IMG/VR virus record: IMGVR_UViG_3300043772_002678
Coordinates: 1 to 27,438 of that record
From: a virus
DNA: 27,438 nucleotides
Reading direction: 5' to 3' (one strand)
Both the position numbers and the translations under genes were made by a program. Below the pieces are notes generated by a model, which was given only the letters and a program-made list of their open reading frames with translations, did not search any database and had not been told where the DNA came from. Shown piece after piece: positions 19,738 through 22,358 of the stretch (its first letter is position 1; every line of letters starts with the position of its first letter).

Positions 19738-19785
19738 CATCAACCCGCAGTGCTGCACTCAAACAAACAAACTCAGCAACCTTTT

Positions 19786-20163
19786 TTAGCTGTTCCCAGT
19801 GGTGTAGGTCGTCGCAGGTTGGCGGAAAGTACCTTGAGGGGGGGCCCCGAGTTCCCGGATTTCTTTTTCTATTCTGTCCCAGTCGGCCGGTCGCCAGATC
19901 GCACCACGCACCGCCAGCAGCCACGCGAGTTGATCGGGCGACGCTTTGCCCTGATCGCTCTTGAGTTCGCGAAACAGCACCACGCCGTTCCGTGCGAGGA
20001 CTAAGTCAGGGAAGCCAGCACCATCGGCCGAGACTGCAGTCCGCCAGGTCTCTTTGCCTCCGACCGTTGTCCGAGCTGGTCTGAAATGGGCGACTCGCCA
20101 GCGATGAAGGTGAGCCAGATCGATGACCTGTTTCTGAAACGCCGCCTCGGTCAGCTTTGCCAT
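19786..20163 (-). CDS. VRR-NUC domain nuclease
   Basis: The 125-residue protein starts MAKLTEAAFQKQVID at 20163. A further ATG at 20193 is actually the CAT anticodon of the tRNA remnant, so the shorter start is preferred. The nuclease motif is DGAGFPDLVLARNG, then FRELKSDQGKASPDQ: a PD-(D/E)xK core with D, E and K in the expected order, typical of VRR-NUC restriction-like nucleases common in phage replication and recombination regions. The C-terminus (REPADWDRIEKEIREL) is helical. It lies next to the attachment site and upstream of the late promoter and is transcribed leftward. The role is inferred to be DNA processing. Confidence 0.85.
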   Translation of the reverse strand: MAKLTEAAFQKQVIDLAHLHRWRVAHFRPARTTVGGKETWRTAVSADGAGFPDLVLARNGVVLFRELKSDQGKASPDQLAWLLAVRGAIWRPADWDRIEKEIRELGAPPQGTFRQPATTYTTGNS

Positions 20164-20181: not shown

Positions 20182-20229
20182 TAGCGGGCTCATAATCCGT
20201 TGGTTCTCGGTTCAAGTCCGAGCAGCCCT
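20182..20229 (+). other. attP core: 3' half of a CAT-anticodon tRNA gene
   Basis: The sequence forms the anticodon arm (GCGGG-CTCATAA-TCCGT, anticodon CAT at 20191-20193), a variable segment, a perfect T arm (CTCGG-TTCAAGT-CCGAG, 20206-20222) and the 3' acceptor strand CAGCCCT plus A (to 20230), with no encoded CCA. The upstream 35 bases do not form a D arm or the matching 5' acceptor (AGGGCTG expected), so this is only the 3' half of a Met or Ile2 tRNA. Integration by tyrosine recombinases into tRNA 3' ends leaves exactly such a segment. The integrase gene lies nearby and phage genes flank both sides, so this is attP in an unintegrated or tandem arrangement. Confidence 0.8.
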
Positions 20230-20265
20230 ATTTTTGAACTACGTGTTAGCACATTTGATTGCCTG

Positions 20266-20300: not shown

Positions 20301-20555
20301 ATGGAAGAAATGCACGACAAAGAGGAGGCAAAGCAGTTCTTGGCGAACAATGTTCGGCGAACAAGGAAGCTGCTTGGAATGACTCAGGCGGATCTCGCCA
20401 ACTCATCGGGTGTTGGGCAAGACACGATTAGCCTGATTGAGAACGGTAAAACCACACCCAATTGCTTCGATGTCGCCAACATTGCAGAAGCAATGAACAG
20501 CACAACGGAGATTCTTTTGCGGCCCGTGCCTGCTCATCATCTTCAGAAAGTTTAG
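20301..20555 (+). CDS. XRE-family repressor-like regulator
   Basis: The 84-residue protein has an XRE helix-turn-helix: RRTRKLLGMTQADLANSSG forms helices 1-2, and GQDTISLIENGKTTP the recognition part. The C-terminal helix (FDVANIAEAMNSTTEILL) completes a five-helix domain, with no long dimerisation or cleavage domain. ATG 20301 gives MEEMHDKEE; the second ATG at 20310 has AGGGAG nine bases upstream. If the promoter above is right, 20301 would be translated leaderless (as with lambda cI), so both starts are possible. It lies beside attP and integrase, in the usual place of a lysogeny control gene, and has operator motifs on both sides. The function is supported by context. Confidence 0.75.
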   Translation: MEEMHDKEEAKQFLANNVRRTRKLLGMTQADLANSSGVGQDTISLIENGKTTPNCFDVANIAEAMNSTTEILLRPVPAHHLQKV

Positions 20556-20562
20556 AAAAAAC

Positions 20563-20602
20563 GGATAAGTCCATATTGCATGGACTTGGATATATCCATA
20601 TT
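20563..20602 (+). promoter_or_regulatory. operator candidates O2 and O3
   Basis: Two copies of the repressor-site motif stand 25 bases apart centre to centre: GGATAAGTCCATATT at 20563 and GGATATATCCATATT at 20588. The second contains the perfect palindrome GGATATATCC (20588-20597). A further perfect inverted repeat AAGTCCA-N7-TGGACTT (20567-20587) links the two. They lie behind the repressor gene and before the attenuator and integrase, so they probably control the rightward transcript. Confidence 0.5.
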
Positions 20603-20651
20603 GTTCCTCTCGTCGTGATAGACGGGAGTGGTCCTTGACTCGGACGCCAAG

Positions 20652-20706
20652 CCCGCTGATTGCGATTGATCAGCGGGTTTTTTCTTTCCCGGACGAACCC
20701 GCTGAT
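20652..20706 (+). terminator. terminator with overlapping competing hairpin (attenuator candidate)
   Basis: Segment 1 (CCCGCTGAT, 20652-20660) and segment 2 (ATCAGCGGG, 20669-20677) form a perfect 9-bp stem with an 8-base loop, followed by T6 (20678-20683): a textbook rho-independent terminator. Segment 3 (AACCCGCTGAT, 20696-20706) is fully complementary to segment 2 plus TT (11 bp), so 2:3 pairing would break the terminator and include its T run. This gives two mutually exclusive structures between the repressor and the integrase. Confidence 0.7.
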
Positions 20707-20941
20707 CTCGTTTAATACAAAACCCATCAGCAGGGAGTGTTTATGGAAAGCCTCACGGAATGTTGTGGTTGCTCGCCGCAGAGTAACACTCAGAGTTCTT
20801 GGAATGCGGGGTTTTCCGCACCCGAGGGAACTGTTTCGATTCTTGCTTGTGTCGCGGAAACGGTCGCGGGTAATCCTGTTGCCATCGTTACGCGAAGTAT
20901 CTCAAACGAGATCACGGAGGGTCGTCTTAGGACTGACCACG

Positions 20942-22240
20942 ATGATTGCACCAGTCGAACAGCGGACAGAGTTTCGGAAACCACGGCGACCGATCGAGAT
21001 CAGAGTGATCGTCGAGTTTCAAATGCCCAGGGGAGTCGGGCCGATGAATTATGCACCGGCGGAGTTTGTTTTCACTCCCTCATCAGCTCCGGACGTTGCA
21101 CCTGTGGTGACTGTGTCCGACTCGCTCATCAGCTCAGTGACTTCGCCGGAGCCCTCGGCGGCTATATCGTTGGTGGAACTTTACAGGACCAATCTGGAGC
21201 AGAAGGAGCTGCTCCAGAACGAGGCCAAAACGGTTCGGGCGGATATTCAACGAATCGTGAGGTTTCAAGCATGGTTGGAGCAGCGGAGCGAAACTCCTCT
21301 GCTCAAGCAGATAGCGGACCAGAAGGATATTCTCTGGGACTACGCAAGGCACCTGAGAACGCAGGACAAAGGCTATTCCTCGGCTTCCTGCGGCCATGCA
21401 CTCAATGCGATCATGAAACTCCTGAGATGGTGTTTCGAGTCGACGCTGATCGGCAAGATGTCAAAGGCTCCGACGCGGGGCGATGTCAACATGATGAGAG
21501 CGGCCAGCACCGAGAACGAGGATTTTCAGGGCGAGCCAGTGACGCTCGCCGAGTTCGCCAAACTGATGAGCCCGGAAGTGTTGCAGGGCTGCCGATGGCC
21601 ACGAATCGGAAACGTGAGTCCAGCACAGTTCTGGGAATGCGTGCTACTTTCCCACATGGTATTCGGGTTCCGATCGCAGGACTGGTTCGCCGCACGGACG
21701 AACGAGAAAGCCGGTCTGATGTGGGCGGATATCGTCGCATCAACGCAGTGCCCAAAGCTGGACGACCTCCACAATCCACATGGGTGGTTGTGGTATCTCG
21801 TCCACAAGACGAAGAAGAAAAGCCAGCGAGCGGCGAAGCCTGTCAAGTTGTTGGTGCCGATCCCCGGGCGTTTGCGGGTTCTAATCGAATTGTTTCGCGG
21901 ACTGGATCCGGAGAGAGTTTTTCCTCTCACGTCAAACAGCCGATACTGGTCGCTCGAGTTCACGAAAATTCTGGAGCGGGCGGGGCTGGACGATGCGAGT
22001 CGCAAGGCTGCAAAAAAACCAGTGATCAAACTCAGCCTCGGTCAGAAGAAAGTGGCGAGCCTTCGGAAGGGCTGCGCCTCGATGTGGGCGGATCATCTCG
22101 ACGAGTCGGCAGCAAGTTATCTGCTGAAACACTCAGTCACGGAGGGAGCAGTCTCGGCGATCACTCGCGAGCATTACCTGCAAGCATATCGCCCACTGCG
22201 GGCCATTGTTGCAAATCTCGAAACGCTTCCCATCTGGTAG
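20942..22240 (+). CDS. tyrosine recombinase / integrase
   Basis: The 432-residue protein (from ATG 20942; a second ATG at 21044 has GGGGAG ten bases upstream and gives 398 residues) integrates the phage at attP. Residues ~75-175 form the helical core-binding domain (SLVELYRTNLEQKELL, then NAIMKLLRWCF). The catalytic domain shows Arg at GFRSQDW (R244), Lys near HKTKKK (~290), Arg at ASLRKGCAS (R375), His at LLKHSV (H397) and the nucleophile in REHYLQAY (Y412). The usual His of the HxLR box is replaced by Ala, and it lacks a typical ~60-residue arm-binding domain. The region 20743-20942 is read sensibly only in another frame. It lies beside the tRNA-half attP. Confidence 0.85.
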   Translation: MIAPVEQRTEFRKPRRPIEIRVIVEFQMPRGVGPMNYAPAEFVFTPSSAPDVAPVVTVSDSLISSVTSPEPSAAISLVELYRTNLEQKELLQNEAKTVRADIQRIVRFQAWLEQRSETPLLKQIADQKDILWDYARHLRTQDKGYSSASCGHALNAIMKLLRWCFESTLIGKMSKAPTRGDVNMMRAASTENEDFQGEPVTLAEFAKLMSPEVLQGCRWPRIGNVSPAQFWECVLLSHMVFGFRSQDWFAARTNEKAGLMWADIVASTQCPKLDDLHNPHGWLWYLVHKTKKKSQRAAKPVKLLVPIPGRLRVLIELFRGLDPERVFPLTSNSRYWSLEFTKILERAGLDDASRKAAKKPVIKLSLGQKKVASLRKGCASMWADHLDESAASYLLKHSVTEGAVSAITREHYLQAYRPLRAIVANLETLPIW

Positions 22241-22271
22241 AGGCATCAAGCCAGAAATGTGAGGCGGTTCG

Positions 22272-22358
22272 ATGAACGAACTGACCGTCATTTTCTGCGT
22301 CGTGCTCGCTGGCATTTTTGCTGCTGGAGCAGTCGAGGCAAACCTATTCAGGGAGTGA
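22272..22358 (+). CDS. 28-residue hydrophobic peptide
   Basis: ATG at 22272 starts MNELTVIFCVVLAGIFAAG, and the frame ends with TGA at 22356-22358. GTGAGG is about eight bases upstream. The sequence is one transmembrane helix with a short charged C-terminus (EANLFRE). It lies between the integrase and the terminator hairpin at 22390-22448. Such tiny membrane peptides in early regions may modulate a host membrane process, but coding is supported only by the ribosome binding site and hydrophobicity. Confidence 0.4.
   Translation: MNELTVIFCVVLAGIFAAGAVEANLFRE

Follow-up and report, generated by a model that had tools for sequence, protein, structure and literature searches.

Intrinsic termination of transcription is decided while the T run sits in the polymerase, and attenuation requires that the competing strand be made before the terminator closes. 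Attenuators of the trp and riboswitch types accommodate a strand common to an intrinsic terminator and another hairpin, located between the promoter region and the first start codon. Leader structure can also act on translation, as in the folding of the IS10 outside transcript, where structure in the 5′-UTR restricts the start region of the transposase. The 5′-UTR of the ISPpu9 tnp gene is likewise structured in a way that restricts the transposase start region (PMC8450116), and a survey of promoter-proximal terminators reports a mean ΔG of -16.5 kcal/mol for 5′ terminators (PMC2965389). Here we describe a phage leader that bears a partial likeness to each of these systems and opens onto an integrase operon.

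The window, that is, the whole stretch of DNA analysed, is the complete IMG/VR virus record IMGVR_UViG_3300043772_002678, 27,438 bases in length. Left of ~20,200 lie minus-strand genes, among them those for the large terminase, the portal, a GP7-type major capsid protein and the tape measure protein; the right-hand part holds an Xre-type repressor gene, followed by the leader, the integrase and early genes. The elements that bear on the leader are as follows.

20189-20234, plus strand: 3′ half of a planctomycete tRNA-Met(CAT), probable attP core (matches complete tRNA-Met genes)
20301-20555, plus strand: Xre/HTH_3-type repressor gene, 84 aa, alternative ATG at 20312 (PF01381, 4e-11; repressor PHROGs)
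20563-20603, plus strand: operator-like repeats GGATAAGTCCATATTG / GGATATATCCATATTG and palindrome AAGTCCAT-n5-ATGGACTT (repeat scan)
20576-20581 and 20597-20602, plus strand: possible promoter, TTGCAT and CATATT spaced by 15 (by eye only)
20652-20660, plus strand: segment 1, CCCGCTGAT, 5′ arm of the terminator (sequence, repeat scan, terminator scan)
20668-20683, plus strand: segment 2, ATCAGCGGG (20669-20677; 3′ arm 20668-20679), with the T run 20678-20683
20696-20707, plus strand: segment 3, AACCCGCTGATC, competitor for segment 2 and its first two T (12 bp perfect; shuffles; compensatory changes in a relative)
20726-20737, plus strand: segment 4, ATCAGCAGGG, imperfect fourth copy of the repeat, at 20726-20735 (sequence, folding)

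The sequence at 20189-20234 is identical to the 3′ part of complete Planctomycetota tRNA-Met genes and scores 28.2 bits as an Rfam tRNA, below the cutoff of 29. A pattern drawn from this stretch in the window and a close relative, searched against one genome per species for 84,980 species, matched Planctomycetota records only (one titled Kuenenia), mostly inside complete tRNA-Met genes. We infer that the hosts are Planctomycetota; to our knowledge, lysogeny regulation in phages of this phylum has been little described. Separately, the planctomycete contig JAPLOA010000049.1 (loci L007 and L010) carries a complete tRNA-Met together with a separate 3′ tRNA-Met fragment bearing the same flank, the pattern expected from an element integrated at the same attachment site. 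Farther left, on the minus strand at 19760-19790, four virus contigs (L028-L031) start exactly at GCTAAAAAAGGTTGCTGAGTTTGTTTGTTTG, and these 31 nt stand at both ends of the contig IMGVR_UViG_3300042294_003323, with flanks that differ between phages; this word marks either a packaging (cos) site that has been conserved or a shared sequence at which the assemblies break.

The preliminary description of this leader proposed that segment 2 pairs perfectly either with segment 1, over 9 bp followed by T6, or with segment 3, over 11 bp, and placed the element between the operators and the integrase. These pairings are indeed present, each segment lies where it had been placed, and the element does fall between the operator-like repeats and the integrase operon; the second pairing amounts to 12 bp. 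The 1:2 pairing spans 12 columns at 92% (20649-20660/20669-20680) with 9 perfect pairs, and segment 2 (20669-20677) is followed by TTTTTTC at 20678-20684. A scan tool called 20649-20680 a terminator, and a GC-rich hairpin with a T run directly after it, the anatomy of an intrinsic terminator, is found here as well as in two related loci (L002 and L066, introduced below). The 2:3 pairing (20668-20679/20696-20707) is 12 bp at 100%. The 81-nt stretch has a folding energy of -30.5 kcal/mol (z = -3.8; 0/200 shuffles as good), and segment 2 with its T tract pairs with the downstream 60 nt at -26.3 kcal/mol, against -10.8 +/- 2.3 in shuffles (0/500). The corresponding downstream pairing in L002 reaches -26.9 kcal/mol, against -14.4 +/- 2.6 (0/500). 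Both pairings of segment 2 are thus real and far beyond chance, and they exclude each other, as had been proposed: segment 2 is common to both, and both are kept in the relative. A role for 2:3 as a terminator on the minus strand was considered and rejected, as no T run follows it on that strand. An 11-nt perfect long-range complement also links 20703-20713, at the end of segment 3, with 20904-20914, just before the integrase start; 9 bp of it are kept in L002.

Comparative evidence comes chiefly from L002 (IMGVR_UViG_3300042294_003323), the one close relative, whose integrase is 84% identical. Its leader aligns with that of the window from segment 1 onward, the leaders upstream of this point are not alike, and the xre gene and operators differ. 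A motif related to the 20563-20603 repeats also occurs in the xre promoter of the window, and L002 carries different, equally repeated operators at the same places. Relative to the window, L002 leaves segment 1 unchanged and has three substitutions in segment 2 and four in segment 3; after these seven changes, 12/12 pairs of 2:3 remain, by way of three compensatory doubles and one G-U. In simulations that used the transition bias of this leader (16:7), survival of all 12 pairs had P ~0.006 and at least three doubles P ~0.003. The 1:2 pairing survives in L002 through two G-U pairs (simulated P ~0.08-0.17). With two sequences, the support for 2:3 as an RNA pairing is good, not overwhelming. A distant prophage-like locus, L066, displays the same order of xre, operator-like repeats, terminator, ORF and integrase, with a competitor for the terminator that is not significant against shuffles (P = 0.15). 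Scans of viral contigs by integrase, by frame B (the ORF described below) and by DNA pattern returned only the L002 contig, and an xre query against viral contigs yielded no relatives of the leader. Terminase relatives led to 30 loci from related phages, with this integrase only in the already known one; distant integrases came from genome scans, and their leaders lack a significant competitor.

The order of the parts has consequences for timing. The T run ends at 20683 and segment 3 occupies the positions 13-24 nt beyond it, so that this competing strand is transcribed only after the T run. When folding was followed as the RNA grows, 1:2 was the sole fold until ~25 nt past the T run (~20702-20706), beyond which 2:3 became the better one. 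Because segment 3 is made after the T run, it cannot block termination in the same passage of the polymerase, and therefore refolds only RNA that has already been read through. Given established knowledge of intrinsic termination and the sequence order, segment 3 cannot be an antiterminator. The preliminary description had regarded the mutually exclusive pairing as the hallmark of transcription attenuation, a conclusion that does not follow when segment 3 is absent at the moment termination is decided.

That the element stands before the integrase, as first described, holds only loosely: the integrase starts at ATG 20942, and the leader is followed first by a different start codon, ATG 20743, which belongs to a second frame, termed frame B. 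Segment 4 overlaps the Shine-Dalgarno sequence of this ATG, AGGGAG, and is pairable with segment 3 or segment 1. The 3:4 duplex has P = 0.024 in the window and 0.32 in L002. Folded in full, the leader is nearly isoenergetic in its two states in the window (-70.4 for 1:2 with 3:4 vs -69.6 kcal/mol for 2:3), the corresponding values for L002 being -72.3 and -70.6. In the window, opening the stretch from Shine-Dalgarno to ATG costs 12.0 kcal/mol when segment 3 is left free and 6.9 when 2:3 can form; the L002 costs are 8.9 and 4.6 kcal/mol, respectively. These opening energies do not exceed those of shuffled leaders: the native leader holds its start region no more firmly. When the full-length leader of the window adopts 2:3, segment 1 can pair with segment 4 instead, which would blunt the effect on the start region.

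The account we prefer, offered tentatively as possible rather than probable, is that of a promoter-proximal terminator below Xre-type operators, with the 2:3 pairing acting in read-through RNA to free the start region. The promoter would sit in the operator-like repeats, and 1:2 would serve as a promoter-proximal intrinsic terminator that keeps the integrase operon low. In the RNA that reads through, segment 3 would take segment 2 from segment 1, forming a hairpin of 12 bp that draws in the beginning of the U-tract and keeps segment 3 off the Shine-Dalgarno region of the ORF at ATG 20743. The two near-equal folds would then correspond to a stopped state with the start region paired (1:2 and 3:4) and a state with the start region more open (2:3). 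The sequence itself establishes the terminator, the two pairings with their retention in one relative, and the arrangement of the parts; 3:4 would limit translation and 2:3 would relieve that limit. Rather than cancelling the stop, for which it is made too late, segment 3 is more likely to tune the translation of the few read-through messages.

The main rival, which we hold to be somewhat unlikely, takes the hairpin as the plain terminator of the xre transcript and segments 3 and 4 as a degenerate tandem copy of it (CCCGCTGAT...ATCAGCAGGG...GTTT), leaving 2:3 as a by-product of duplication with no regulatory role. In its favour, segments 1 and 3 form a 19-nt direct repeat (79%), segment 4 looks like segment 2, 94 nt separate the terminator from the xre stop, and L066 has the terminator with no significant competitor. 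However, a decayed copy should lose its pairing, yet 2:3 keeps 12/12 pairs through the seven L002 changes; moreover, operator-like repeats and a potential promoter precede the terminator, which puts it within the leader of the operon that follows. A true attenuator, with a segment 0 farther upstream (~20612-20626, TCGTGATAGACGGG) pairing with segment 1, would have its parts in the right order and an internally consistent chain of five strands, 0:1 with 2:3 being the ON state and 1:2 with 3:4 the OFF state, with a ligand, protein or RNA on segment 0/1 deciding between them. The 0:1 duplex is worth -16.3 kcal/mol in the window and -14.0 in L002, but upstream pairing with segment 1 is not significant in any of the three loci (P = 0.06 in the window, 0.27 in L002 and 0.59 in L066), segment 0 has a hairpin of its own, and the upstream leaders of the two phages are unlike. 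An Rfam search of the leader, with E values allowed up to 10, produced no relevant match to any riboswitch or other known cis-regulatory RNA, and we consider this alternative improbable. Still further down stands classical attenuation in its original form, with segment 3 competing during transcription and coupled to a leader peptide: the mutually exclusive pairing exists and a 25-codon ORF from TTG 20637 crosses the element in the window, but the timing set out above and the absence of that ORF from L002, where the frame carries a stop, render this version highly improbable. No conserved leader peptide was found, and the proposed coupling to translation is not supported. Scarcely credible, finally, is a role at the DNA level in which the CCCGCTGAT copies, four within 85 bp in alternating orientation, bind a phage protein rather than act as RNA arms, given that the L002 copies drift apart yet stay pairable via G-U, as RNA would allow, and that ~420-540 bp separate the copies from the attP core, a long way for arm sites of an integrase.

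Downstream of the leader, two reading frames are superimposed.

20743-22275, plus strand: frame B ORF, 510 codons, overlapping the whole integrase gene; its stop overlaps the next start (ATGA, 22272-22275)
20920-20938, plus strand: putative hairpin GGTCGTC-TTAG-GACTGACC, immediately ahead of the integrase start (sequence; L002 comparison)
20942-22240, plus strand: integrase, a divergent tyrosine recombinase, frame A, 432 aa (catalytic residues, domains of relatives)
22272-22358, plus strand: 28-codon membrane-peptide-like ORF MNELTVIFCVVLAGIFAAGAVEANLFRE, overlapping the frame B stop (ATGA), conserved in L002

Two features mark the integrase as a tyrosine recombinase, the SAM-like domain of a relative and the R...K...R..H..Y series: R244, K289, R375, H397 and Y412 are invariant in two integrase alignments (A5, A6), the relative L060 matches PF02899 (7.8e-7, the SAM-like domain) and the more distant L105 matches PF00589 (9.7e-14). 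The window protein itself gave no Pfam hit, and its predicted structure has a mean pLDDT of 31.8. In L002, an in-frame TAA just upstream of the equivalent of ATG 20942 leaves that ATG as the sole possible start; because of this stop, ATG 20942 is taken as the integrase start, by homology in the window. The 55 nt around this start (20899-20953) are identical in L002 except for one base, synonymous in frame B and creating the frame A stop in L002. The possible hairpin at 20920-20938 covers the integrase Shine-Dalgarno sequence, an arrangement which suggests that the integrase start may be coupled to translation of frame B.

Genes of cells or dsDNA phages rarely overlap at length on the same strand, and such cases are disputed. 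Frame B is open through the integrase in both phages, ending in L002 likewise on the start of the 28-codon ORF. Shuffling synonymous codons of the integrase yields 15.2 +/- 3.0 frame-B stops in the window and 19.2 +/- 3.3 in L002, where the actual count is 0 in each; random synonymous codons at the 211 codons that differ between the two create 8-11 new frame-B stops when one phage is taken as the starting point (P ≤ 2e-4). The window and other loci supplied 249 ORFs of 300 codons or more, and every one of them has stops in that frame when followed from stop to stop. Of 56 related integrases placed on a tree, 18 are free of frame-B stops across the compared gene (across the overlap only for L066), where ~6-22 are expected. 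These form an open-frame clade comprising the window, L002, L066-L068, L093, L098, L099, L101, L102, L105-L108 and L110-L113; the trait requires 4 changes on the tree vs 15.5 in shuffles, and the sister clade of 33 members has near-normal numbers of stops. Because control genes are also stop-depleted, at ~0.5-0.7 of expectation, the raw expectations should be scaled down; the depletion remains large thereafter.

In three members of this clade (L101, L102 and L105), the part of frame B upstream of the integrase opens with an N-terminus whose conservation is recognisable. Inside the overlap, frame B is under weak amino-acid constraint: for the window and L002 it is slightly higher than expected (1124 vs 1072 +/- 15) and is concentrated in the first 200 codons; in other pairs it is not clearly above the control frame. 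It seems that the openness of frame B matters more than its exact protein. Frame B may be a hidden overlapping gene; in the part of the literature covered by our search, no integrase is described as having a second open frame. A broader reading, unlikely in our estimation, is that the leader gates translation of this hidden second gene, kept open by selection in the clade, the terminator and the bistable RNA together deciding ribosome entry and whether and how the nested integrase start is used. More important than the leader itself is that it leads to an ORF overlapping the whole integrase gene, and the clade-wide avoidance of stop codons constitutes a strong, testable signal.

Set against the described systems, this leader combines a transcriptional stop with a competing strand beyond the stop; it resembles attenuation, with its parts in the wrong order for it. 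As in trp-type and riboswitch-type attenuators, a shared strand lies between the promoter region and the first start codon; unlike in those systems, the competitor follows the T run and takes the 3′ arm as its partner, and the leader lacks a conserved leader peptide, a known aptamer and a significant antiterminator. The likeness to ISPpu9 and IS10 is that structure in the leader of a DNA-mobility operon could engage its start region in pairing, depending on where the transcript begins, whereas here the 3′ arm of an intrinsic terminator competes for the sequestering strand and the putative sequestration is not above shuffles. With the promoter-proximal terminators surveyed previously (PMC2965389), the locus shares an intrinsic terminator in a 5′ leader, its ΔG of -16.3 kcal/mol being near their mean; in contrast to these, the terminator here has no significant upstream antiterminator and heads the integrase operon of a Planctomycetota phage.
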